A stretch of DNA of 64,000 bases. It comes from Physcomitrium patens. Lineage: Eukaryota > Streptophyta > Bryopsida > Funariales > Funariaceae. Below the pieces are notes generated by a model. It saw only the letters and a program-made list of their open reading frames with translations. It had not been told where the DNA came from and made no database searches. Positions 8,517 through 58,600 of the stretch are shown piece by piece (the stretch's first letter is position 1; each line of letters starts with the position of its first letter). The stretch spans positions 19,415,602 to 19,479,601 of the forward strand of contig NC_037253.1 in assembly GCF_000002425.4 (NCBI RefSeq). The letters are read 5' to 3'. Made by a program: the position numbers and the translations under genes.

Positions 8517-9294
8517 CATGTGGGGGGATGGGCAGACAAGCGGGTCTCACATTCCTGCGAGACCAGGCATGGATGTCAAGTCAAGTCAACTCTACTCTAC
8601 TCTTCGACTCCGTCTCTTTGGCTGGCCAGGTCTGTGCAACGTGATGGCTTGTGGCGCTTAGCTCGGCTCAGCTGCGTGTTTGTTCGGGGTTCTCATTGCG
8701 ACTTCATGGCATGCGAGCCTAACCCGCTAGATGCTCGACTCTCTGTGTGTGCTTTCAGCGAAATTTGTGTGTTCTGAATGCTAATGCCGGCGTAGTTCAC
8801 AGAATCGCGTTCTACACTGGGGTTGCAGTCCTTCAGTGCAACGGCAGATGGCAGCAACATATTGCGAAGCCAGAGACGGAGGCAAGCATGTGTGGCGCCG
8901 AGCCAACCACGAGCGTGATGTGTGGTTGCGAGACTCGCGGGGCGAAATTGGAAGTGTGGGTGTGGGTGTGCGCGCGCGTTGTTGAAGTGAGAGCGGGTGC
9001 AGTGGCAGTGATGGGATTGTGAGGCTTGGTTGTTGGGTCGCAGGATGTTGTTTGCATGCAACAGGCAAATGCGTGAGGATGTGTTTCCGTGGTTTGGTAT
9101 AAAGGAGGCCAGCATGGCTGAAGATGTGATCCGGAGTGACGGAGAAGAGGGGTGAAATTGTGTGTTTCCACGATGTGAATGTGGAGGGGGTGACAACGGC
9201 GGTGGAGAGGTAGGCAGGCAGGCAGCGTAGGGACCAGTTGGTGCGGCGTATGGATGCGAGGGGATGGAGGGGGGAGGGGAGAAGGAGAAGTGCA

Positions 9295-9338
9295 GACCCA
9301 CATGGATTGGAGGGAGATGTTGAGGCAGTTATATAATG
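9295..9338 (+). promoter_or_regulatory. Pol III-type U6 promoter: USE-like element plus TATA box
   Basis: GACCCACATGG at 9295-9305 matches 9 of 11 positions of the plant snRNA upstream sequence element RTCCCACATCG. A TATA box (TTATATAATG, 9329-9338) lies about 24 bp further on and about 31 bp before the U6 start. The short USE-TATA spacing is the arrangement known for plant Pol III snRNA promoters; Pol II snRNA genes use a longer spacing. Confidence 0.8.
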
Positions 9339-9360
9339 TGGCGATGCTACATCTCCTGTT

Positions 9361-9380
9361 GTCTCTTCGGAGACATCTGA

Positions 9381-9412
<32 letters not shown>

Positions 9413-9463
9413 GGCCCCTGCGCAAGGATGACACGCACAAATCGAGAAATGGTCTAAATTTTT
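9361..9463 (+). ncRNA. U6: U6 spliceosomal snRNA gene, copy 1
   Basis: This is the catalytic-core snRNA of the spliceosome, transcribed by RNA polymerase III. The sequence shows the 5' stem-loop (GTCTC TTCG GAGAC), the invariant ACAGAGA box (within GATACAGAGAAGATTAGC) and the AGC triad downstream. It then follows the plant U6 consensus to the 3' U-run, giving a length of about 103 nt as usual. Compared with the common plant U6 5' stem (GTCCC/GGGAC), one pair is changed C-G to T-A on both sides, so pairing is kept. Promoter elements lie upstream and a T7 terminator follows. An identical copy lies on the minus strand at 22919-23021. Confidence 0.96.
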
Positions 9464-9465
9464 TT
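9459..9465 (+). terminator. Pol III T-run terminator of U6 copy 1
   Basis: Seven consecutive T residues end the U6 gene. They supply its 3' oligo-U tail and the RNA polymerase III stop signal. Confidence 0.9.
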
Positions 9466-10438
9466 CTCTCTCCTCGTCTGCAAAGTCATCTTTATTTTTT
9501 GTTTTTATTTATTTTTTAATATATCATGGCCATAAGCAAATATACACTGCTGCTCATGAATTTCCATCTCCCGAGTTGCTCTCAAGCATCATTAATTTTG
9601 TAAGTACATCCCACTCTTTAGAACAGATAATGAATCAACTTTCAATGCCAATTTTTAACATTTCATTTAGCACTAAATTCATTTGTCTCCACTCTTAATA
9701 CAAGATTCTAGAATTCTATGTGCTCAAGAAAATCACAAGGCTATGTGATCTATCAATACATGTTTTTATCTATTGTATTATTTTGTAGAATTAGCCATCT
9801 AAAATTGAATAATAATGGATTTATAGAAAATAATGTAATTAATCTAAAAAATAGTTGTGGTGGAGATTTAAGAGATTCTTTTGTAGTCTATTTCCTATTA
9901 TTATTATTTTGTATAAAGGGCCTCAATTGTTTCAAGTCATTAAAATTATGTCTAAATATTAAATAGACTTACTTTTTTACTAAATCAATCCACTTTATTT
10001 GAACCATCATTAAAACCATCATTTCCAACCCTTGCTCTTTTTGTTCCTAGCTCTCATCTTGACCTCCTATTTCCACTCATAGGTTTTGTTGTTGTATTGT
10101 AAAACAAAAGGATTAATACAAATTTGTGTGTTTTACCATATGGTGCAATGAAGCTGCACCAATGGATGGAGGAAGAAAAGGAGAGGGGGAGAGGAAGATG
10201 ATGTGTGGATGTTGTAATATTGAGCATGAGACAAGACCTTTTGAAAAGCTAGTTGCAAACAATGCAACATATAAATCATGTCTTTTATAGTGTTTTGATA
10301 AAGGCCAAGTCCTAGATTCTTAATATTGTGAATTCATGTAGAAGCAGATACAAACAGATACAGACACATATATACACATACACCTTGAAGTTGCAATTAA
10401 AAGCAAAACTTCTTAGTTTGAGTGATCTAATTGGCATG
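9466..10438. other. AT-rich arm DNA between U6 copy 1 and the LTR
   Basis: I see no gene. The stretch is AT-rich and contains an 82-codon open frame that I regard as chance. Its inverted copy is 21944-22916. Confidence 0.6.
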
Positions 10439-15510: not shown

Positions 15511-15708
15511 TTTGTCTAATCTTAATTAAGAGTGGATTACCTCTTTTTCTTGATAAGATATAAGCATATTAGAAGTTGCGGATTATCCTCTTCTAAACTG
15601 ATATTGTTCTTAGTATTTTCTTTGTTCTCAAGTCCTCTTTTCTATTTGTCTTGAGCCATATTAGATAGCTTCTTTTTTCTAAGTGTTATCATTGCAGAAC
15701 TTATTGAA

Positions 15709-16637
15709 ATGAAGAATGCAATGGCACAAATGCAAGAGCAATTGAGGGAATTAATGCTTGTGATGCATCAACTCAATTTACCACCACAAAGAGCAACAAG
15801 ATTGGCAGGAAGTGAAGATATAGAAATAGTTGGAGCTACTTCAACATCTACACCAAACCATGTCCTTTCTCTTATGGTGGAATACCCTTCCAATATTAGA
15901 GAACCAAGAATTGCCCTACTCAAGAAGTTTGATGGCACCACATCCAAGTTTCGAGGATTTATCAATCAAGTGCAACTTGTGATTGAACTTCAATCCCAAA
16001 GCTATCCAACTCCAAGATCGCAAGTTAGATTCATTGGTACGCTTCTTTCAGGTTCAATACTATCATAGTTTTTATCTTTTTTAGAATGACGAGATCCAAT
16101 AATGGATAATCTAGAGGCTTTTCTGGCGGAGTTTTGATCCATGTATGGAGAACATGATGCAATTCGTGTTTCAATCAATAAGATCCGTATTTTACGATAA
16201 GGCAATTGATCAGTAACGTTGTATGCTTCACAATTTTGACAACTTGCAACTGATATCAAGTGGGATGATGCTGCACTTATTAGCCATTTTCTCTATGGAC
16301 TATAATATGAGGTAAAAAAATTAATGCTCAACTTATTTGATTCTCAAACATTGAGTCAAGCAATTGACTTTGCTGTGAAGTGTGACAATCGCCTTTTTGA
16401 ATTTCGATCTGAGAACCGTACAAGTGGACCTCAACGTTACTATAATTCAATGGCAACACCAACACCTCTTCAACACATACATTCGAAAGTAGAGGATATG
16501 CAAATTAATGCAGTACGTTTCAAACCTCTTACTGAGCAAGAAAAGACTCGTCATCGTCAAGAAGGATTATGTTTATATTGTGGAGAGCAAAGCACACTGC
16601 TCAACATTGTCCAAAGAAATTACTCAATCACAAAATG
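15709..16637 (+). pseudogene. Gag pseudogene of the chromovirus
   Basis: An open frame of 119 codons from the ATG at 15709 carries a short coiled-coil-like N-terminus (AQMQEQLRELML) and a capsid-start-like block (LLKKFDGT). It stops at 16066-16068. Gag-like coding continues in shifted frames to a zinc-knuckle remnant near 16570-16615, where the CCHC pattern is recognisable only across a frameshift. The product is nucleocapsid/capsid of a retrotransposon; this copy is dead. Confidence 0.8.
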
Positions 16638-16639
16638 AG

Positions 16640-19600
16640 GAGTATGGCTGTGAAAGAAGACATTATATCGGAAAACGAGTTTGTCCAGCTACAATAGGGA
16701 CTATGCAGCTGGAACCTTGCACAACATCTAATAAAGGTACTATTCTGTCCTCAAAGCCCTCTCCTAGTTTTACATTAAATATTATTTTAGAACCTAAATA
16801 TTATAAAGTCTCTGCTTTGTTAGATTCGGGAGCCTCGAGGTGTTTTTTAGATGAAGAATTTATTAAAAGACATAGCATATCTTTAATAAAGAAAACTAAA
16901 CTTGTTCATGTAGAAGTCATAGATAGTCGTCTATTGTCTTCTGGAGATATTATTCACGAAACCCTTTCTATAGAAGTAATAATCAATGGTCATAATAGTT
17001 TTGTAATATTTAATATCATTAGATCTTCCTCTAATCTAGTCATTTTAGATTTATCGTGGTTAGAAAAATACAACCCTCAAATAAATTGGATTTCTCGAAC
17101 TCTTACTTTTTCTAAAAGTATAGCTAACAGTGTAGTTAATCAAATAGAGAGTCATAAATCCAGTTCAATTGAACCCGTATTTATAGGTACAAAAGCTTTC
17201 TTGCATGTTGCTATGAAAGAATCACCATATATTATTTATGCCACACCTGTTCTTACAGGTGAAAAGACTTCAAGTGGCATTCCAAGCCAATATCAAGAAT
17301 TTCAAGATGTATTTGAAAAAAAGAATGCGGATACACTCCCGGAACATCGTTCCTATGATTGCTCAATTGACCTTCAAGAAGTAGCACAACCACCATTCGG
17401 ACCAATCTATAGTTTATCACAAAATGAGTTGACTGAAGTCAAGGAGTATATTGAAGAAAATCTAGCTAAGAATTTCATACGCCATTTTAAATCTCTAGCA
17501 GGAGCTCTAATTCTATTTGTGAAGAAAAAAGATGGATCATTGCGGATGTGTGTTGATTATCGAGCACTCAACAAGATTACCATCAAGAACAGGTATCCAC
17601 TACCTTTAATATCTGGACTTCTTGATCAACTGAATAAAGCTAAGATCTATACAAAAATAGATCTTCGAGGAGTATACAATCTAGTACGCATCAAACAAGG
17701 AGATGAATGGAAGACTACGTTTCGAACTAGGTATGGATATTTTGAATACAACGTCATGCCTTTTGGACTTACATATGCACCAGCAGCTTTTCAACATCTA
17801 ATGAATGATGCTTTTTGAGAGTTCTTAGATGATTTTGTGGTCTGTTATCTAGATGACATCTTGATCTATTTTAAGAATCCAGAAGAACATGAATTTCATG
17901 TTCATCGTGTGTTACAAAAATTAAGAGATGCAGGACTCTATGCCAAGATAGAAAAGTATATATTCCATACTACTCAAGTCGATTTCTTAAGTTACATCAT
18001 TTCAAATGATGGACTTATGATGGATCCTAAGAAAGTTCAAACTATTATAGATTGGAAGATTCCAAAAACGGTAAGAGATGTCCAATATTTTTTGGGATTT
18101 GCCAACTATTATCAGATCTCCATCAAAGACTTCTCTCGAGTTGCAGCTCCACTTACACATTTGACTTGTAAAGACAAACTCCAATGGAATCAAGAAGCAG
18201 AAGTTGCTTTTGAATCTTTGAAGACAGCGTTTGTTTCTACACCAATCTTGTATTATGTTGATTTTTCCAAAGCATTCTTTATGGAAACAGATGCATTAGA
18301 CTTTGCTCTGGGTGCGGTTTTATCACAAATGAGAATAGATGACAAACTTCATCCAGTAGCCTTTCATTCAAGAAAATTCTCAACAACAGAAATCAATTAT
18401 GAGATCCACGACAAAGAACTTCTTGTAATTATGGATTCTTTTCAAGAATGGCATCATTATCTAGAAGGCGCTTCCAGTCGAGTCACCGTGTATACGGATC
18501 ACAAGAACCTCAAATATTTTATGTCAGCACGCGTATTAAATCGTCATCAAGCTCGTTGGAGCATGTCTTTATTAAGATTCGAGTTCATCATCACTTATCG
18601 GCCAGGAAAACAACAAGGTTTGTCCGATGCCTTATCTAGACATTCTTAACTTGCACCAAAAGAAGGAAATGCAGCATTTGAGCAACAAAGAACGGTTCTC
18701 TTGAAGCTAGAGCAATTTCATCTTCGAGCAATAAAATCAACATTGACTATTGATTTAACTTTTTTTAAGCAAGTCTAGTTAAGTATGTCTTGAGACTCTC
18801 TTGTTTATGATATGAAGAATAATTCTTCTAAATCTCATGATCCCTCTAAATTTGAATTCAAGAACAATCTACTCTATTTCGAAGGACACCTATATGTTCC
18901 AGAAGGAGAAGCACGTTTACGTATTCTTCAAGCTCGTCACGACTTCCTAGCAGCAGGACATTTTGAATATAATAAGACTTTGGAGCTGATATCTAAGAAT
19001 TTTTGGTGGCCTCAAATGTGGAAGGCAATCAAAGATTTTGTACAATCATGTGATGTTTGCTCGAGATCAAAAACTCCTCGTCATCGATCTTTTGGACTTC
19101 TTCAGCCATTACCCATTCCAGAACAACCATAGTCTCATGTTTCTATAGACTTCATCACGGATCTTCTAATCTCAGGTTCTTATGATTCTATATTCGTGAT
19201 AGTAGATTGTTTTACCAAGATGGCACATTTTGTACCATGTACAAAATCTATCACAAGTGAAGAAACAGCTTAGCTCTTTCTTGACAATATCTATCGCTGT
19301 CATGGATTACCCAAGGATATTATATCAGATAAGGGAACTCAATTTGTATCAAGATTTTGGCGGACTCTTTTTAAGATTCTAAAAGTGAATATAAAACTAT
19401 CTTTGATATTCCATCCTCAAACTAATGGACAAACGGAGCATGTTAATCAAGTTTTGGAGCAATTTTTAAGATGTACCATTAACTACTAACAAGATAATTG
19501 GACAACTCTTTTGCCATTGGTAGAGTTTGCTTACAATAACATGGTACATTCTTCTATAAAACAAACACCTTTCTTTGTTAATTATGGTTATCATCCATGA

Positions 19601-20191
19601 CTTGATACTTTTGACTTTTCAAAAGTTGATAATCCTGCTACGAAAGATTTAGCAATTTATTTATCAAAGCTACATGCAATGATGAAGGCGCAATTAAAAG
19701 AGGCTCAAAAACAACAAAAGGCCAATGCGGATGTCTATCGAAAGATACAACCATCATTCGTCTTGGGTGATAAGATATGGCTACTTCATCGCAATATCAA
19801 GACCACTCATCCTTGTGACAAGTTGGACAATCGAAGGCTGGGACCATTTTCTATTTCTGTACAAATCAATCCAGTTGCATATCGTTTACATCTACCAGAG
19901 TCAATGAAAATCCATTCAATATTCCACATGTCTCTTCTTGAACCATATAAGATAGTGGACATACCAAGAAGACGACAAGCTCCACTTCCTCCTATAGAAG
20001 TGGACAATAATGAAGAGTTTGAAGTAGAAGAAGTCTTAGATTCAAGGTGGCGTCGAAATAAATTTGAATATCTTGTCTATTGGCACAGATATGGTATTAG
20101 TGAACGTGCATGGGAGCCAATAAAGAATCTTGCAAACATAGCAAAGGTGGTAGAGGCTTTTCATCGACGACATCCATCAAAATCAAGATGA
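16640..20191 (+). pseudogene. Pol pseudogene: protease, reverse transcriptase, RNase H, integrase, chromodomain
   Basis: Domains in order: aspartic protease with DSGAS (Asp codon at 16823); reverse transcriptase with the VDYRALN block and YLDD catalytic motif (17846-17857); RNase H with a DALDFALGAVL-type block and YTDHKNL (about 18290-18520); integrase HH-CC zinc module (about 18935-19070) and DDE core; and a chromodomain (about 20018-20170, ending in an AWEP motif). A TGA at 17816-17818 splits the reverse transcriptase. Further stops lie at the end of the zinc module and inside the integrase core. The last 170 codons (19679-20191), including the chromodomain, are open. In chromoviruses this domain is thought to guide integration to heterochromatin. 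Confidence 0.9.
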
Positions 20192-21943: not shown

Positions 21944-22916
21944 CATGCCAATTAGATCACTCAAACTAAGAAGTTTTGCTTTTAATTGCAACTTCAAGGT
22001 GTATGTGTATATATGTGTCTGTATCTGTTTGTATCTGCTTCTACATGAATTCACAATATTAAGAATCTAGGACTTGGCCTTTATCAAAACACTATAAAAG
22101 ACATGATTTATATGTTGCATTGTTTGCAACTAGCTTTTCAAAAGGTCTTGTCTCATGCTCAATATTACAACATCCACACATCATCTTCCTCTCCCCCTCT
22201 CCTTTTCTTCCTCCATCCATTGGTGCAGCTTCATTGCACCATATGGTAAAACACACAAATTTGTATTAATCCTTTTGTTTTACAATACAACAACAAAACC
22301 TATGAGTGGAAATAGGAGGTCAAGATGAGAGCTAGGAACAAAAAGAGCAAGGGTTGGAAATGATGGTTTTAATGATGGTTCAAATAAAGTGGATTGATTT
22401 AGTAAAAAAGTAAGTCTATTTAATATTTAGACATAATTTTAATGACTTGAAACAATTGAGGCCCTTTATACAAAATAATAATAATAGGAAATAGACTACA
22501 AAAGAATCTCTTAAATCTCCACCACAACTATTTTTTAGATTAATTACATTATTTTCTATAAATCCATTATTATTCAATTTTAGATGGCTAATTCTACAAA
22601 ATAATACAATAGATAAAAACATGTATTGATAGATCACATAGCCTTGTGATTTTCTTGAGCACATAGAATTCTAGAATCTTGTATTAAGAGTGGAGACAAA
22701 TGAATTTAGTGCTAAATGAAATGTTAAAAATTGGCATTGAAAGTTGATTCATTATCTGTTCTAAAGAGTGGGATGTACTTACAAAATTAATGATGCTTGA
22801 GAGCAACTCGGGAGATGGAAATTCATGAGCAGCAGTGTATATTTGCTTATGGCCATGATATATTAAAAAATAAATAAAAACAAAAAATAAAGATGACTTT
22901 GCAGACGAGGAGAGAG
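21944..22916. other. AT-rich arm DNA between LTR and U6 copy 2
   Basis: Inverted copy of 9466-10438. I see no gene in it. Confidence 0.6.
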
Positions 22917-22923
22917 AAAAAAA
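22917..22923 (-). terminator. Pol III T-run terminator of U6 copy 2
   Basis: Seven A residues on the plus strand, that is seven T residues on the U6 sense strand. Confidence 0.9.
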
Positions 22924-22969
22924 TTTAGACCATTTCTCGATTTGTGCGTGTCATCCTTGCGCAGGGGCC

Positions 22970-23001
<32 letters not shown>

Positions 23002-23021
23002 TCAGATGTCTCCGAAGAGAC
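22919..23021 (-). ncRNA. U6: U6 spliceosomal snRNA gene, copy 2
   Basis: Same sequence as copy 1, on the opposite strand, with the same 5' stem variant (GTCTC/GAGAC), ACAGAGA box and T-run. The two genes point toward each other across about 13.5 kb. Their promoters are also identical, so both should be transcribed if either is. Confidence 0.96.
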
Positions 23022-23043
23022 AACAGGAGATGTAGCATCGCCA

Positions 23044-23087
23044 CATTATATAACTGCCTCAACATCTCCCTCCAATCCATGTGGGTC
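23044..23087 (-). promoter_or_regulatory. Pol III-type U6 promoter of copy 2 (USE-like plus TATA)
   Basis: Inverted copy of the elements at 9295-9338, with the same spacing to the U6 start. Confidence 0.8.
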
Positions 23088-23865
23088 TGCACTTCTCCTT
23101 CTCCCCTCCCCCCTCCATCCCCTCGCATCCATACGCCGCACCAACTGGTCCCTACGCTGCCTGCCTGCCTACCTCTCCACCGCCGTTGTCACCCCCTCCA
23201 CATTCACATCGTGGAAACACACAATTTCACCCCTCTTCTCCGTCACTCCGGATCACATCTTCAGCCATGCTGGCCTCCTTTATACCAAACCACGGAAACA
23301 CATCCTCACGCATTTGCCTGTTGCATGCAAACAACATCCTGCGACCCAACAACCAAGCCTCACAATCCCATCACTGCCACTGCACCCGCTCTCACTTCAA
23401 CAACGCGCGCGCACACCCACACCCACACTTCCAATTTCGCCCCGCGAGTCTCGCAACCACACATCACGCTCGTGGTTGGCTCGGCGCCACACATGCTTGC
23501 CTCCGTCTCTGGCTTCGCAATATGTTGCTGCCATCTGCCGTTGCACTGAAGGACTGCAACCCCAGTGTAGAACGCGATTCTGTGAACTACGCCGGCATTA
23601 GCATTCAGAACACACAAATTTCGCTGAAAGCACACACAGAGAGTCGAGCATCTAGCGGGTTAGGCTCGCATGCCATGAAGTCGCAATGAGAACCCCGAAC
23701 AAACACGCAGCTGAGCCGAGCTAAGCGCCACAAGCCATCACGTTGCACAGACCTGGCCAGCCAAAGAGACGGAGTCGAAGAGTAGAGTAGAGTTGACTTG
23801 ACTTGACATCCATGCCTGGTCTCGCAGGAATGTGAGACCCGCTTGTCTGCCCATCCCCCCACATG

Positions 23866-37400: not shown

Positions 37401-37665
37401 CGATGCGATACCTTCGGTTGAAGAGATTTTTTTTAGTATTTGCTTCAATTGAGCAACAATATTGTATTGCCAGCGATGTCGTCCCTGACGTGAGTGATCG
37501 AGTCAATCAGCTGCGTGTAGAGTAGGTATTCCTGTGGGTTCGACGATGTGTTGGAAGAAAGAAGAATAGGGTTTGTTGGAGCGGAAGTTTGTCGACGGAT
37601 AGGGTAAAGTGGATTTGTGGATACAGGTCTATGCAGTTGCAGGAAGTAATTCGAGTGTGGTGAGT
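34482..37665. other. Intergenic region between divergent MurG and RABC genes
   Basis: It includes both promoters. Just upstream of MurG there is a telo-box-like CCCTAAACCCCTAA (34661-34674). Between about 35.1 and 35.9 kb the plus strand has normal base composition and fragmentary coding-like frames that I cannot assign to a family; it may be a relic. A 5' UTR intron for the RABC gene is possible (acceptor-like TTGCAG at 37636-37641). Confidence 0.45.
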
Positions 37666-38301
37666 ATGGCTGGCCCCGGAAATGACTTCGATCACCTGTT
37701 CAAGATCCTCCTGGTCGGGAATTCAGGTGTTGGAAAGAGCAGTCTCCTTCTCCGGTTCACTGCCAGCAAATTCGACGACCTGTCGCCAACAATTGGAGTA
37801 GATTTCAAAGTGAAAATGGTGAGCTTGCAAGGAAAGCGTCTGAAGCTGACGATTTGGGATACTGCAGGGCAAGAGAGGTTTAGGACGTTGACGAGCACTT
37901 ACTACAGAGGTGCTCAGGGCATCATCTTGGTCTACGATGTTACAAGGCGGGCTACATTTACAGATTTGTCAGATGTGTGGTTGAAGGAGGTGGACCGATT
38001 CTCCACCAACAAGGATTGCATCAAGATGCTAATCGGCAACAAGGTGGATCTGGAGGAGAGCGAACGCGTGGTCGCTAAGAAGGAAGGGATTGCGTTTGCG
38101 AGGCAACATGGGTGCTTGTTTCTGGAAGCAAGTGCCAAGACGAGCATCAATGTTCAGCGCTGCTTTGACGAGCTGGTGCACAAGATTTTGGATACCCCCA
38201 GTTTGACAGCCGACACAGCGCAATTGGAGACAAATCTCTTGAGATCCGATCAGATGTGGGATCAAGGGTATCTCGCACTAGGCGGCGTATGCAGCTGTTG
38301 A
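37666..38301 (+). CDS. RABC: Rab GTPase, RABC / Rab18 type
   Basis: A small Ras-like GTPase that cycles between GDP and GTP states on endomembranes to control vesicle or lipid-droplet/ER-linked traffic. The single exon encodes 211 aa. Motifs: P-loop GNSGVGKS (18-25); switch I with SPTIGVDFKVK (40-50); switch II WDTAGQE (64-70); NKVD (125-128); a SAK motif. It ends with CSC, a double-geranylgeranylation signal. The LSPTIGVDFKVK and YYRGAQGI blocks and the overall match place it in the plant RABC (Rab18) class. I chose the ATG at 37666 because family members begin a few residues before the conserved FKxLL(V/I)G strand; the in-frame extension to 37609 lacks an ATG of comparable fit. Absence of coding introns is unusual for plant Rabs and could indicate a retroposed copy, but no poly-A tail or decay is evident. 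Confidence 0.93.
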   Translation: MAGPGNDFDHLFKILLVGNSGVGKSSLLLRFTASKFDDLSPTIGVDFKVKMVSLQGKRLKLTIWDTAGQERFRTLTSTYYRGAQGIILVYDVTRRATFTDLSDVWLKEVDRFSTNKDCIKMLIGNKVDLEESERVVAKKEGIAFARQHGCLFLEASAKTSINVQRCFDELVHKILDTPSLTADTAQLETNLLRSDQMWDQGYLALGGVCSC

Positions 38302-42638: not shown

Positions 42639-43826
42639 CTTCTATGCCTTGAAGAAGGAAAGGAAACAAAACAAAAATACAAAAATAAAGTGAGAAACTT
42701 CATCCACTTTTCCAATCACCCTAAATAAATACCAAAATGCCATACAAACAAGTCATGACGTAAGTCCGACCACACGCTGACGTGGACCGCGGCATGCAAC
42801 TTGGAAACGCCACCGAAGCCCACGGGATCCCGTCTCCACGGTGATAAGACCCCTAAGTTGCCGCGGGCGGCACGAGCCCACCGAAGGGGTTTGACCGCGC
42901 GCGACGCCGGGCGCGGGGAGATCATCGGCCGAGGGCGTCGAAAAACAGGAAGGACGAGTGGACCTCAGATTGAGATGGCGGAGATTGACTTGCTGGTGCC
43001 TATGTTTTGTCTTAATCTGGAAATAGATTTCGTGGGTGCGGGACCATTTGCATGGGTTTGATACCAAACTGTGCTAGACCGACGAAGATTGATTGATTGA
43101 TGGATTCATTGATTCTTCGTCTCTACTGCCTCACCGCCTGCAGCTCTCCACCTCCTCCCTTCGGCTTCTGGGTGCTTCTTCCTTCCTGTCGATCCCGGCT
43201 TTCATTGTTGCATCGCCGTCATTGTTTTCGAGTAAGAGCGAGACAGCACGCGAGAGAGGGGTTCTGAGAGTAAATGAGATCGCCGCATGAGGTTCGCTTA
43301 TCTGGACAGTGCTCATGGGTGGGATTTTGTTAGCGACGAGGCTTGTTAGGCTGGTGTCGATCCTCCACGAACTAGTGCTTGTTAGTGCGGCAAGAAAGGT
43401 AGTATCTCAAGTCTTTCTAGCTGATCGCGGCCGGAGGCTGCGGGTGACTGGTCACTCGTGAAAACATCTGCTGGTCGATGGTTTTGCGCAAGCATGCACG
43501 AGAATCGATCGTCTGAAACGAATACTGGTGCAGTGTAGTGGAAGGTGTTTATAGTAATGAGGAGAAGTGGGATGTCTGACTGTGGAGGCCTGACAGATGA
43601 GGATCATGTCTGTTTGGAGAGTCAGCTACTTTTCTTTTGGCGTCGCATCAGCGCTGCGCGACGATTGATGGCTTCGATGCAGGGTGGAGAGGCGAAAGAG
43701 ACAACAGGGACAGATGAATATTTGACTTTCTGTCTTGAGTCCTGAAACTTCCGTGTCACAAATGCGGAGCAAAAACGAGGATCGGTGAAAGATTGGGTTT
43801 TCGAGGAGCAAGACACTGCTGGAGTG

Positions 43827-46800
43827 ATGGGAATTGATTTGAGAACGTTGGTGTTGGTGTGGTGGCTGCTCCTTGCGTCGCCCTGGGTATTGCTTTCGAA
43901 GTCGATGACACTGGAAGAATTCAGCGTTAAGGAGAAGAAGGTTCAGCGTTTGGCATCCGATGTTCTCCATAATGCGCGAGATACGGATGAATGCGGTGAG
44001 GTGCCCAATTCTTCATAGCATTCGTTTTCTGGAGACACGTCCATCTGACACTGCAGATTGAACAGCAGATGATACGAAGAATACACGACAGGCCTCCCCA
44101 TTGATTTCACAGATCGGTGTTTCTACGGGCAATACAGCAATTCTTGATTTCCATAAACTAGATCACCACGATGGGGGCTCCAACGTTGAGTACTTACCAA
44201 GGTTTTGTCTCTTGGTTCTTCCTCTGCAGGGCTTACGCTGTGCATCGACAATTGCGCGCGTCATGCCTGCTCGGCCGTTCACACTGACAATTTTGTGTGT
44301 GCCAATACGTTGCGAAACGTTTCGGATTGCCAATCTCTTGACACTGGAAAACCATGCTTACAGCTGAAGCTCAGCTTTGACATGAAGGGCTTCGTCCGGT
44401 AAGTGGATTAATTCACTTGCTCGGTATGATGTGCCCCCAAGTTGTGCTCAATGCAGTGTTGTATCAACCGAGCAGCGACTCACAAAATATGCATTTCTTG
44501 AACTGCTTCGCTTGTAGGCTTCCGCCACCCATCATCGACTACTCGAATGACAAGCTGAGGCCGGAAATCACGAGAGCAATTTGCTCCCAGTCAAATCTTG
44601 CGTTCCAATCGAGCAGCGAGGTTACCCACACTTTCTGGAACTACTTCGGATCTGCAGAGGGTGTTTGGAGAAGCTTTCCTGGACGAGTACTTTTCAAACT
44701 GTCCCATGAGTCTACCACTTTTTTTTATTACAAGTTCTTGTTTCCGTGGGATTGCAAAGTCTCACAGCATGCATGAATGTGTGGTCAACAATTCCTTGAC
44801 AGGTAGCCGATCCTAATGGGGGTTGCATAACCTACGATCCCCGCAAACGGCCGTGGTATATCTTGGCAACGGCGGTGGTCAAAGATCTGGTTATCCTTCT
44901 GGACACCGGACAGCAAAATGTCGACGCCTTTAAGTTGGCTGTGAATGTTGTTTCAGAACTTTTTGATACCGTTCGGATCGACGATTTGGTAAATGTGGTT
45001 ACTTTTGATTCCACAGCCGCGACTCCACTGCAACCGAGTTCGGTAAGTGTTTTTCTTACTACTCGGAATGACTTATCGTTGCTTTTTCTTCTTCTTTTTT
45101 TTTTTTTTTTTTTTTTTTTCCCATTGCGCCGAAGTTGCGTGATAGATACAGTAAAATTTTCTGACATAGTAATCGACGTTTCTGGATCATGCCGTCAACC
45201 TGCAGCTGCGCATTGGAAAAGATAGCAATGCCGCAGAGTTGTCCAAGAGGTTTGAGCTGTCCAGCGTGAAGAATACAGCTAATGGTTACTCAAACATCAG
45301 TGGAGGATTTAAGCAAGCAAGGTCGATGCTTCAACCTTTAAGTAAGCTGAAGGTGCGGTTCTTCGTACCTTGTCAATCCCCAAACCGTCTGTGATATGTG
45401 TTTTCCATTTTCCCAATGATCTCTTCAGAATCAGGGAGATTTTCTCTCAAATACCTCTAAACCTACGCACATGCGTCGTCTTTGGATAATCCCATCGGCA
45501 GATATTTTTGGTATTCACCGACGGCTACTTTTCCAAGAGCTCCACCTTCTACGACCCCGCTCTTCAGCGCGAAGTTGCAACCCTCAAAACGAACAACGTC
45601 GTGGTATTCTTTTTCAGCATTGGGCCGGGTGAAGCTGACAACCCCCCAGATCCACTTACAGAACTCCGCAAAGTCTCATGTTCTATGAACAGCACCGTGA
45701 CTTATGTGAGCCAATTAGATGCTCACTGGAATCCTCTCTGGGCCATTCGCCCCTACTACGATTACCAAGCGCAACTCCGAAATTCAAGCACGAATGGCAG
45801 TTTCTGGACCGACCCATACATGGATTTCGATGGTTTAGGCGAGGTCGCCACTGTTGCTCACCCTGGTTCGCAGATCCCCACCCTAGACCTGAACTCTATC
45901 AACATTGCTGGATGCATAGCTAAGGAGACTGGGTACAATTGAGGCAGAGACTTTATGTTAACTGATCGCAATGGGTTGTCATTCGTTCATTTGCAGTATA
46001 CGCGAACGGAACGTTGTATGGCGTCGCCGGCATTGACGTGTTTGTTGATGAGAGAGACAATTCCATCATCAAGTCTAAAGCTGTTGATCCAAATGTCCCC
46101 ACCGCCCAATTGACGTGTCACTTAAAAAACGTAAGTAAGATTTTTGACATGGTATTTTAATTTCACGAATATTCTGGGTGATGTTATGGACGCGGATCTC
46201 TGAAGCCTGAGCAACGCCCGGTGGATCTTGTTGGTTTGCATGGGACGTGCTGATCACACCTTTTAAGATGACAGGAGTTCCTCGATTTTAATGTGCAGGT
46301 TAACCTTAGCGGGTGCACCAAAGCTGTCGACCCCAATCTTAAACCTCTGTGTCAGCAAAATATGTATCTCAACGAGGATCAGGAAAAGGTTTACAAGAAT
46401 CTGCTGTGTTGCGGCACTTGCACTTTCCGGAACACCAAGAATCGTAATCTTGTTCCAGTGTATCTAGCCGCGGTGGGAACGAGTGTTGTCGTCATCGTAC
46501 TGATAATTATCATTGCTGTCTTTGCTTTGAAATACAGAGCTGCCCGGAGATACGTTCAAGAGATCCAAGAAGGTGAGGGTGAAACTTTGAACGCTTCGCT
46601 CCGTAACTTCAAGCAGAATTGAGCGCTCCTCTCATTTCACACTTACATATACATACATTTAGATACAAATACATATATGGTCGATTAAGCATAGAAGGAA
46701 TTAGTTCATTGAAAATCTGGTGGTGTGTTTTTGCCTTCAGATTTTGCAAAGGCGTCTATATCAACGAATTTGTACACGTATAAAGAGCTGAAAAAGGCCA

Positions 46801-48430
46801 CTCGAAATTTTCACAAAGACAATAAACTGGGCGAAGGTGGATTTGGAGAAGTTTTCCTGGTAAGCACCCTCGAAATTGCCTATCACGGAACATGACAGCT
46901 GATAGTTCTTGAAGTAATAATTGGAGGGCAAAGACCAAAAACTTTTGAGTTTCATGGTCGTGCAAGGTTAAGCCGGATTGCCAGAGTTGACCTGCTGTGG
47001 TGGTTCTGGACAGGGAAAGATTAGGGATGGTTCGCAAGTGGCAGTGAAGAGGCTTTCTGAAGACTCCAAGCAAGGGAAGCCTCAGTTTCTGGCAGAGGTG
47101 ATGATCATCAGCAAAGTGCAGCACAGGAACCTCGTGAAATTGCGGGGTTGCTGTGTCGAGGGACGTCACCGACTTCTTGTGTACGAATATTTGGAGAACA
47201 AGAGTCTTCGTGAAACCATGTTGGGTAATCCTCTTCTTCCGAAGCTTCACTTAGCAATTTTCTGCACATGAAGATCGATGTCTAAAAATATTACAGTATA
47301 CCCTAAAATCAATTCCGGAAGTGTAGGGGCCCCGGAGCAAGTGGTACATATCAGTTGGCCAACTCGATTCAACATTGCGGTTGGAACTGCTCGAGGTCTG
47401 GCATACCTGCACGAGGAAATTACTCCTCGCATTATCCACAGGGACATCAAAGCAAGCAACATCCTTCTGGACGCTAACCTCGAAGCCAAGATTTCTGACT
47501 TTGGTCTAGCCAAGCTCTGCCCAGATGAACGAACACATTTGACAACAGCCATTGCAGGCACATTGTGGGTGTCTCTAACCTAAAATTCAGAATAATTGTG
47601 TCCATTCTAGTTCACCAATGTCGCACAGATTCACGAATGGATTCCAATCATAGTTTTGTGCACTTAACAACACTTCGAGGAATCTAACGTGCAGCTGTTT
47701 GTTGTTGGGGATTGCATAAAAGAGGCTACATGGCTCCCGAGATGACGCGCGGGCAGCTTACAGAGAAGGTGGACGTGTATAGCTTTGGCGTCCTATTGAT
47801 GGAGATTGTCACTGGTAGGGCTACCATGAGCATCACCGATTTTGGATCTTCGATTTGCCTTATTGACGAGGTGCATCTTCTCTCACACTCTCTCTCTCTC
47901 TCTCTCTCTCGCCCACATGTACACACGCTTCCGCGCTCGCGCGAACAAGTGCTCCTTTATCTTCAATGCTCAGAATCAAGTGTAAACCATCCTTGCGCTC
48001 GATTGAATACTCTGTTTGGATGCAGATGCGGGACTTGTCCAGAAAAGCTCACGAAACAGGCGCAGAAGAGCTGATGCTTCGCTATGCGGATCAAAAGCTT
48101 CAAAACGACTTCAACAAAGAAGAAGCCATCAGGGTGTTAAAGGTGGCCCTTCTGTGTACAAACGACGCTCCAACGTCCCGGCCTTCCATCACGCAAGTGG
48201 TCCAGGTGCTGATCGGCGCGCGAGAGTTTCCCGAATATCTCCTCAAACATCTCCTCGAGAGCTATCAATCTACCCCGAGACCACGCTGGTATGACTCCGA
48301 TTTATCCAACGCCAACTCTTCGTATACCCATACTGGACGCCATTTCAACTCGCCCACAGCCGTCACCACCACCAGCGCCAGCAGAGATGAAATAGGGTGC
48401 GTTTCTTCAGTTAACATGGAAGGCAGATAG
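43827..48430 (+). CDS. Receptor-like kinase with extracellular VWA and Cache domains
   Basis: A predicted plasma-membrane Ser/Thr receptor kinase. Exons: 43827-43995, 44230-44398, 44518-44686, 44803-45042, 45206-45352, 45502-45865, 45997-46130, 46299-46572, 46741-46859, 47014-47224, 47327-47564, 47723-47870, 48026-48430, giving 928 aa with all phases closing. Order: signal peptide (about 1-24, [16 protein letters not shown]); Cys-rich N-terminal part (about 55-90); VWA-N-like block (FPGR...YDPRKRPWY); VWA fold (about 195-340, VNVVTFD, FLVFTDG); Cache block ([36 protein letters not shown]); membrane span at about 515-541; kinase with GEGGFGEV (586-593), Lys607, HRD (703-705), DFG (723-725) and APE (749-751). 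The kinase is a complete RD type, closest in look to the LRR-VIII/DUF26-related RLKs. The ectodomain resembles voltage-gated calcium channel alpha2-delta subunits. Its MIDAS is DTGQQ (203-207) instead of DxSxS, so metal binding is doubtful. Ligand unknown. Confidence 0.88.
45095..45119. repeat. T25 run in an intron of the receptor kinase
   Basis: A long T tract inside intron 4, between exons 44803-45042 and 45206-45352. It is upstream of the acceptor by about 85 bp, so it is unlikely to be the functional polypyrimidine tract. Confidence 0.85.
47888..47910. repeat. (CT)n microsatellite in the last intron of the receptor kinase
   Basis: About 11 CT units just after the donor of the intron 47871-48025. 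Confidence 0.85.
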
Positions 48431-55601: not shown

Positions 55602-58600
55602 TTATTGCATGTAGCTTGCATACTTGGCACTAAGTAACACTTTCTGCACGCATAGAAGGGCTTGCGTTGCAACCTCAGGATTGGGATGCGACATATGCTT
55701 CATCACCCGCTCCTTGGCCTTCAAATCAAGGATGATCCCTCGACCAGCTGGATGATTTTGAATAAACTGGGCTATATCGTGGCAAGCCACTGCAAGGGTT
55801 TTAGGATCTCGGGAGTTGTCCAATAACGTAATCAAAATACGTAGTACCTTCACGCACAGCCAACGACAATCTTTAGGAACGTGCGAGAAATTTTGTTCGA
55901 TTCATTAAAAAACTAAGAGTTGAATGGACGTGCACGCGTATATATATTTGTGTATATGTGTCAATTGCAATTTTGTTAGCAAGAGACGGAGTGAGCCAGA
56001 GAGACAAGGAAGGAGAAGAATATGGAAGAAAGAGAACAACATTGAAGACGTCAAGAAGAACCTGAAAGTCGCTTTCTTCAAACTTGGAGATGTTCTCACG
56101 CCAGAACACAGGATCTTTGTGCATTGGAGACCAATCCAGATTCCCGGAGAATACTTCACCTTTGTACCTGTCAAATGAGCTCAACTTGCGTATAATATCC
56201 TTCAAAGCTGCGTCTACTACATCCAACGCTTGCAACAAGTCCTGCAAAAAGCACCCAAAGTGTGTGTTTGATGTTAGGTTCCTTCTTTGATGTCAATAAG
56301 GTTCAATGCGGAGGCATTTGAAAGGGATTACAAGCCACCGCTCAGCTCCACAATTAAATGTGGCAAGTTTAGTTTGGTAGTTTAAATATACAATCACCAT
56401 TCGCAGCTAAGAACAGAAATTAGTAGAAACTGACCTCGTCATTCCATGCTTGCAATTTCAAGCTCTGTACAACCTTGGACATGCCCAAATCTACCATCTC
56501 TGCAGCAAAGTTCCCCTTGCTTGAAAGGTTGTTTAATGCCATCATAGCAATTCTCACAACCTGTTGTACACAGTAGCTTGATCAGTCAGCATTCAAATAA
56601 CTAAAGATGCTGCAGAGGAATACTTTCTCCTAATTGAAGCAACTCAGAGTAACTGAGAGATAAAGAGGTACAAAGATGAGATTTGCAAACTGCAGTTTTG
56701 CCATTGATTAACTATCATGTAATCTGCCGAACGAAAAGAGAGAAATCGCAATGCACAGCACAATACAGCTGTCATGAAGTTTATTCCCAATCCCACTGTG
56801 CAAGCGTATTAAAAAGACTTTGTTGCTTGAGAAAACAAACTCAAAAGCAAGACATTACAAACTAAAGCTCTGTAGGTTGCATCAAAAACACCTTTTCTTT
56901 AGTGGATATCTTCACAACTTCCACTAGGCGGGATATGACTCTCGCTGTGGAAAACGATTCCACAACACCATCATAAAAAGATAGAAGCCATATGCACAGC
57001 AACGCCTCATACAGCAGCTGCAACAATTAGGGGCTTGAGAAGTTGTTAGAATAAAATCTGTACGTCAGTTTCAAAAAGGAAAACAAGAGGATCATAGAAG
57101 TTCACAGACAACTAAGAGAAACTTAAATCTAATCTACCTAAACACCCTATAAGAAAAAGCTTAGACACCACAACACTATCGGCAGTAAAAGTGCATCATT
57201 AATAACAGCAATAGGAGGGGGAGGATAATGACCTGAATGTATTGCTGGTTGGTAGCAGGGGTAACTAAGGGAGCTAGAAGCTTGACGCCATCAGCCTTCA
57301 CAAACATAGCTCGCACTTTTGAAACACGTAAGAGGGTTGCCAAAGAGCTCACAGCAGTGGGAATCCCCCGAGATGGATGTGACGGGTTTCTTAGCTGCAC
57401 ACAGATGCCACCGGTTAAATTATTTATGAATTAAACTTCAAGCTATATTGAATGTTATTGCAAGAAACGAACCACGCCATGATGAATCTGCTAGTCAAAT
57501 CAAACAGCCCTAAATGAAGCTTCCTAAACCAAACAGGTAGGACCTCTACCTGTGTGATGAGCCAATCCAGAACACTCCGGAGAACCTCGTTAAATGTGTC
57601 TGCCTTTTTCTGTGAAGCTGTAATATCTTCAAGATCTGTCTCTTCATACTGCCGGGCACTGCAACACCCTAGCCACAAACTTGATCAGTCAAGCACCTCG
57701 CGGATATAAAAAGGAATTGTGCTTATTCATGTGAAATATTGGTGAGACATTACCATTCAACGTAAAAATAACTTTTAAAGCGTTCTCTGACCAAAGAAAA
57801 GGCACATCTATAAATGCCCCTTCCGGTAACTAATGTCAGAATTATAGATTACTTACCTGATAATCAATGTGAGAATCTTGCAGCTCTTCTCTTGAATAAA
57901 CCAATTCTTCTTTGACAGCAACCTGAAGCAGACCCGCGGTAATATGATAAGTGGGAGGAGGAACTCTCTTTCTCTTTTTCTTTCTCTATCTCTAACACTC
58001 TCTCAGTACTTCAAAAATGAATGAGCCTGTAAATGAGCAGGAACTAACCTTACAAACGGTCGGTAAACATCCTCATTGTCTTGGAAAGACTTGTCATGAA
58101 ATAAACGAGCACGCGTTGGGTTCGCTGCCAAAATGAGGACAGAAATTTATTCAACTAAGTTATGATCATATAGCCCTCCCATGATATAGTATCCCCACAT
58201 TATCAAACGACACGTCGATGAACACTCTACATCATGTCTTTGAAGTCGCCGCTCATAAATACTAGATATCTATTACTTTAAACACATTCGACTTGCAAAT
58301 CGAGGCCGAGAATAGGAAGATATCAAAATTCAGTAAAATTCCAGCAATGGCAGTCTAACCCCAGTCCAGAAAACCACCAATTCACGATCATTTTGTGATT
58401 CCTGTCAACAAACTGTCGTGCACATACGAACTTAAGATCGCGTATTTTTTAGCAAAGTACCTGTGAGCATCTCGTCCACCATTGCGAGCATATATTCAAC
58501 AGTTTCCTGCTTGGAGATGTCTCGTAGAATGCCCACGAACACTTTGACGTAAGCTACTCCATTCTGCATTCCCAATTCAGGTACAAAGATTCTTAGAAAA

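Follow-up and report, generated by a model that had tools for sequence, protein, structure and literature searches.

A putative amino-acid-sensing receptor kinase with an α2δ-like VWA-Cache ectodomain in the moss Physcomitrium patens

The gene at positions 43827–48430 of the forward strand in a 64,000-nucleotide stretch of Physcomitrium patens contig NC_037253.1 (hereafter the window) almost certainly constitutes, as judged from its sequence, a single gene for a putative plasma-membrane receptor kinase of mosses, in which an ectodomain of the type found in animal calcium-channel α2δ subunits precedes a cysteine module, a single membrane-spanning segment and a kinase. Among plant cell-surface signalling proteins, receptor kinases form a main class; in this one, the outer part shares its construction with the amino-acid-binding half of the calcium-channel subunit that gabapentin targets in animals. 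The explanation that we regard as best overall, and as probable with its mechanism and history included, is an amino-acid-sensing VWA-Cache receptor kinase of mosses; the protein is a strong candidate for sensing amino acids in a plant.

Gene model and domain layout

The rebuilt model has 13 exons, 12 introns that are all GT-AG, and 929 codons including the stop, i.e., 928 residues. The reading frame is closed across the ectodomain–kinase join (46572|46741), and both Pfam and hydrophobicity agree with an earlier note on this DNA, which had described a continuous 13-exon model with signal peptide, one span and kinase, and phases that close from 46572 to 46741. Residues 27–928 are letter-identical to the nr protein PHYPA_001229 (902 residues; P0001 below), the public start of which is Met27. 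The ATG at 43827, with an in-frame stop upstream at 43743, adds a signal peptide (43827–43904) that is missing from the public model, and the relatives P0002 and P0003 likewise have a signal-like N-terminus, which is hydrophobic in P0003. Signal peptide and membrane span were read from 19-residue hydrophobicity segments, the top 20 of which begin at residues 513–529 (span) or 5–8 (signal), i.e., the layout of a receptor-like kinase (RLK) with a signal and a single span. Pfam assigns residues 579–854 to Pkinase (3e-48) and residues 197–367 to VWA (2.2e-9, above the cut-off); NCBIfam matches are of a generic kinase kind, apart from a single weak VWA-type hit to P0003 that does not reach the cut-off. 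The kinase is of the RLK/Pelle type, with catalytic Lys, HRD and DFG all present, and its exon phases, set against section 6 of PMC10152718, are 1,0,1,2,0. Nine N-glycosylation sequons occur in the protein, seven of them before the membrane span; together with the CCxxC module they would fit an extracellular stalk. The features are arranged as follows.

43827..43995 (+): exon 1; start codon, signal peptide residues 1–26 (hydrophobic stretch), ectodomain begins
44230..44398 (+): exon 2; cysteine-rich N-terminal region, its cysteines fully or almost fully conserved in alignments
44518..44686 (+): exon 3; dCache_1 first half, by sequence comparison
44803..45042 (+): exon 4; Cache first half ends with YDPRKRPWY, then VWA begins
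44833..44859 (+): motif YDPRKRPWY; amino-acid motif as in PMC9901441
44884..45708 (+): VWA domain, residues 197–367, exons 4–6; inserted in Cache, MIDAS DxSxS replaced by DTGQQ
45206..45352 (+): exon 5; VWA
45502..45865 (+): exon 6; VWA end, Cache second half begins, motif Tyr404 at 45817–45819
45997..46130 (+): exon 7; Cache end, motif Asp433 at 46035–46037
46299..46572 (+): exon 8; membrane-proximal cysteine module CCxxC, transmembrane helix at about 46452–46529
46741..46859 (+): exon 9; juxtamembrane part, kinase N-lobe GEGGFGEV
47014..47224 (+): exon 10; kinase, catalytic Lys in VAVK
47327..47564 (+): exon 11; kinase, HRDIKASN from 47437, DFG
47723..47870 (+): exon 12; kinase, APE region
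48026..48430 (+): exon 13; C-lobe of the kinase, then C-terminal tail and stop codon

The α2δ-type ectodomain and its pocket

In the hhalign alignment to α2δ, the first Cache half, the VWA domain and the second Cache half are matched in that order, which places VWA inside dCache_1; homology to α2δ-1 is found with E values of 9e-14 and 5.8e-27 (hhalign). The predicted structure of the ectodomain of a relative (class II, see below) gives a fold match to α2δ. The α2δ-like VWA-Cache ectodomain proposed in the earlier note is thereby retained, by sequence and by the relative's model, but not its division into consecutive blocks, and a plain tandem of VWA followed by Cache was discarded on the insertion order. 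Of the 1081 positions of the α2δ protein, the match covers none beyond 496, and the moss ectodomain ends about 75 residues further on, at the span. By that alignment end, the second dCache of the α2δ/CACHD1 family is absent from the moss ectodomain.

As in α2δ-1, the dCache_1 domain is split by an inserted VWA domain and carries the motif Y-R-W-Y ... Y ... D, but the moss protein has no second dCache, its metal-ion-dependent adhesion site (MIDAS) is broken, and it has a membrane span and kinase in place of a glycosylphosphatidylinositol anchor (PMC9901441). CACHD1 resembles it in the VWA-Cache ectodomain, in a MIDAS that is also disrupted (PMC6231325) and in being a transmembrane protein, but differs in having four Cache domains (PMC9901441). 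The same amino-acid motif is present in the bacterial dCache_1 chemoreceptors PctA/PctB and PscC, of which PctA is a weak PDB match (0.026), but these have no VWA insertion. They carry a methyl-accepting signalling part rather than a Ser/Thr kinase, and CACHD1 is not known to have a kinase either. A proteolytic α2/δ split, a further point of difference from α2δ-1, is not known for the moss protein.

The universal amino-acid motif reads YxxxRxWY in the first Cache domain, followed by Y...D in the second, and Arg241 and Asp491 are important residues of α2δ-1 (PMC9901441). The actual spacing, in YDVRRRPWY of α2δ as well as YDPRKRPWY of the moss protein, is Y-x4-R-x-W-Y, one residue more than printed in that source (PMC9901441). 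All six motif residues are kept in P0001, as Tyr180, Arg185, Trp187, Tyr188, Tyr404 and Asp433. We take Asp491 of α2δ-1 to be the Asp of the GV-x-x-D step. The related proteins are divided here into class I-a, class I-b, class II and a group from the liverwort Riccia, and the complete pocket is found in nine of 28 alignment rows: six class I-a moss proteins (P0001 among them), P0013 (eukprot), and P0014 and P0015 (jgi). P0019 keeps the first five residues and ends before the Asp, and P0012 and P0036 have gaps at pocket positions. The intact six-residue motif strengthens the case for an amino-acid or amine ligand, and the dCache_1 sensor PsPto-PscC has γ-aminobutyric acid (GABA) and L-Pro as ligands (PMC9452764). 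Based on the motif and on dCache_1 sensors of known ligand such as PsPto-PscC, we lean towards a free amino acid or close analogue as the ligand.

Several observations weigh against the amino-acid-sensing receptor model as a whole. The pocket Arg is replaced by Gln in all four class I-b rows, each with at least one further pocket change, and Trp by Gly in two of them; the motif Asp is replaced in 4/4 aligned Riccia rows (His, Asn, Thr, Gln); and the first Tyr is Phe in all eight class II rows with letters, seven of which are otherwise intact, whereas P0035 also has Phe for the second Tyr. Because the pocket is altered in parts of the family, binding cannot be under constraint everywhere. The MIDAS sequence DTGQQ departs from the intact site of α2δ 1 and 2, and the first MIDAS Ser is Gly in 26 of 28 rows, being kept only in P0014 and P0015; with this site broken, VWA may not act as it does in α2δ-1. 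By Pfam alone the Cache half is weak, since MCP-like_PDC_1 (residues 391–435, 7.2e-5) falls below the curated cut-off. Furthermore, the ectodomain model that was searched alone is that of the class II relative and not of the window protein. Fold searches with the full-length model of the latter (predicted local distance difference test 77.9, predicted template modelling score 0.55) gave kinases only among the best 50 matches of each search, and say nothing about the ectodomain.

Family members and the joining of ectodomain and kinase

Three protein searches, each of which scored only about 8,000 candidates, returned 48 proteins, and among the matches listed ectodomain and kinase are joined in 21 (P0001–P0012, P0020, P0028–P0033, P0035 and P0036), of which P0012 and P0036 lack the N-terminus and have a partial ectodomain. 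An organism name is attached to 17 of the 48: Physcomitrium (P0001, P0002, P0008 and P0035), Ceratodon (P0003, P0004, P0006, P0011, P0029 and P0030), Sphagnum balticum (P0033), Riccia (P0021–P0025, VWA-Cache membrane proteins without kinase) and the thrips Frankliniella (P0016, an α2δ). No kinase-fused member is named from a vascular plant, lycophyte, fern or alga among the matches listed, and at this search depth the absence of vascular-plant members is weak evidence. The bryophyte origin suggested in the earlier note is supported by the fused proteins in Physcomitrium, Ceratodon and Sphagnum; beyond mosses the receptor class found no support, the Riccia matches being without kinase and no lycophyte, fern or algal fusion being among those listed. 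P0014 and P0015 are VWA-Cache membrane proteins in which the two MIDAS serines and all of the amino-acid motif are kept; they may be a protist form of the ectodomain.

The P. patens genome holds at least seven family loci (the search scores best candidates only). Class I is represented by the window gene, by the P0002 gene at C10:2.28 Mb and by the P0008 gene at C27:2.65 Mb, and class II loci with ectodomain and kinase matches lie at C1:20.38, C2:5.21, C9:2.37 and C15:12.64 Mb. P0008 is a predicted isoform that lacks part of the kinase, but its locus (L033) does hold matching kinase sequence. P0034 also has no kinase; its end is an adapter-like sequence, presumably the reason for the loss. In nr, P0002 bears the name 'L-type lectin-domain containing receptor kinase IX.1-like', but its listed Pfam annotation consists of VWA and kinase. 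Class I-b, a subclade of mosses (P0007, P0009, P0010 and P0011), combines the Arg to Gln change in the pocket with Arg to Gly in the kinase HRD motif, and may represent a decoy or ligand-independent branch. HGD replaces the HRD of the window gene in class II as well as class I-b kinases.

The closest solved kinase to that of the window gene is BAK1, with 44% identity over the kinase, and the best PDB matches are BAK1 and BRI1. We assume a resemblance to the LRR-VIII/DLSV subfamily, no named member of which is included in the 23- and 37-kinase trees. Class I, class II and Riccia are each set off by a starred branch in the 32-row ectodomain tree, with the α2δ and jgi proteins lying separately. 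The kinases group differently. Class I scores 205–243 bits against 20 loci of other P. patens kinases, so labelled from their kinase matches irrespective of their own ectodomains, versus 152–174 bits against six class II loci (four genes). P0029 and P0033 of class II score 169–196 bits against FERONIA, SYMRK, BRI1 and BAK1, versus at most 167 against class I kinases. The 37-kinase tree comprises 6 of 11 class I kinases, 5 of 8 of class II, three genomic class II loci, 19 other P. patens loci and four solved kinases; excluded from it are L026, L029 and L033, being repeats or interrupted copies, and L021 and L024, whose sequences are identical to retained rows. One branch of this tree (98/95) separates class II, FERONIA, SYMRK and four P. 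patens kinases from a side that includes class I, BAK1 and BRI1. A single clade of class I and class II kinases is disfavoured by the approximately unbiased (AU) test (p 0.0165 with 37 kinases, 0.0112 with 23).

Two questions of origin have to be weighed against these data, i.e., whether the ectodomain and kinase belong to one gene, and whether they were joined once. A model that merges two adjacent genes, for an ectodomain protein and a receptor-like cytoplasmic kinase, would draw on the position of the join at an intron (46573–46740) and on the Riccia ectodomain proteins without kinase. It is nevertheless extremely improbable, as frame and phase close, the transmembrane segment is on the last ectodomain exon with the juxtamembrane part running on in frame, and fused relatives are named from three moss genera. 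In addition, an uninterrupted open reading frame (ORF) of 945 residues crosses the join in P0005, a contig of 3,822 bases that is apparently a transcript, the only source for such an ORF if its gene has introns like those of the window gene. Separate ectodomain and kinase genes, the outcome that the earlier note had named as fatal to its proposal, are unlikely given this ORF. At two paralogous P. patens loci the matching blocks break at the same ectodomain–kinase point (P0001 residues 529/530), which together with the 21 joined proteins makes the fusion more than chance. Contamination or foreign insertion was ruled out on the 12 GT-AG introns, the location on contig C1 of a 470 Mb assembly and the relatives in other mosses. 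As for the number of joining events, the bit scores of both classes and the tree position of class II (98/95) point to two separate fusions to different RLK kinases, which we hold to be likely. We stop short of a firmer statement because the idea preceded the test, class II is long-branched and the reference loci are biased to class I. These points favour a single fusion, in which both kinases would derive from one ancestral VWA-Cache RLK and class II would have diverged fast: the trees warn of long-branch effects, AU p values of 0.01–0.02 are not extreme for a grouping seen before it was tested, and the P. patens reference loci were selected mainly for being the class I protein's top matches. 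Even so, the scores and the shared branch side make one ancestral fusion an unlikely history.

Function, meaning and genomic setting

A different reading of the ectodomain is a protein-binding module like CACHD1, which has a broken MIDAS and was solved with FZD5 and LRP6; its VWA/Cache surfaces would contact a partner in the cell wall or membrane, and the pocket would be an empty or permanently filled relic. This is the more serious of two functional alternatives, yet it appears doubtful, since the six pocket residues are kept in 6/6 class I-a rows, where 40% of 445 ectodomain columns are invariant, and since fusion to a kinase suits a ligand-triggered receptor. The homology to α2δ-1, the class II model included, would also agree with retention of the animal α2δ role, in which the protein would serve a moss calcium channel as auxiliary subunit or regulator and its kinase would phosphorylate the channel. 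Here the MIDAS, the channel contact in α2δ-1 (PMC9901441), is broken and the second dCache is absent, which leaves this role highly improbable. Classical CaV α1 channels are not known from land plants.

For amino-acid sensing, the protein would be secreted to the plasma membrane, where a free amino acid or close analogue (a proteinogenic amino acid, GABA or proline) would bind the split Cache pocket through Tyr180, Arg185, Trp187, Tyr188, Tyr404 and Asp433. Binding could shift the Cache/VWA arrangement against the cysteine-rich stalk and alter pairing of the receptor with itself or a co-receptor, which in turn would activate the RD kinase in trans. Historically, plants would have possessed an old eukaryotic VWA-Cache membrane protein, which would persist as a kinase-free form in liverworts and would have been fused in mosses, on at least two occasions, to different RLK kinases.

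Like the plant RLK/Pelle proteins BAK1, BRI1, FERONIA and SYMRK, the window protein has a signal peptide, one span and an RLK kinase, but its ectodomain is not among the classes named in the consulted portion of PMC10834447 (LRR, lectin, WAK, DUF26, LysM, malectin, PERK and thaumatin), where about 30% of RLKs are placed outside the seven main classes of the survey. The words VWA, Willebrand and Cache have no occurrence in the main text of PMC10834447, PMC10868138 and PMC10152718, and no description of a Cache or VWA-Cache receptor kinase in plants was found among the openly licensed papers listed. The parts are known individually; their combination is absent from the literature found. We tentatively propose, with less assurance than for the moss receptor itself, that free amino acids outside the cell are perceived in plants by a receptor-kinase class of their own. 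This class would derive from an α2δ-type dCache-VWA sensor of old eukaryotic origin, which in liverworts has stayed free of a kinase and which at least two different RLK kinase subfamilies would have captured in mosses; gabapentin-like drugs could block or trigger the pocket of such a receptor. If this is true, mosses gain a route to sense extracellular free amino acids, and one homologous pocket would connect a plant receptor with bacterial chemoreceptors and with the gabapentin target of animals, in a system open to test in a model moss by gene removal.

Elsewhere in the window, retroelement-like ORFs with a reverse-transcriptase-like YLDD (read by eye) occupy 15655–20188, and 8696–9485 (−) and 22897–23686 (+) are inverted copies of each other, with three ORFs apiece that agree in length and in their first 70 residues. 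A tRNA scan of the window found none. The ORFs at 37603–38298 (+) and 55876–56292 (−), which we take to resemble a Rab GTPase and V-ATPase subunit H, respectively, are ordinary plant neighbours.

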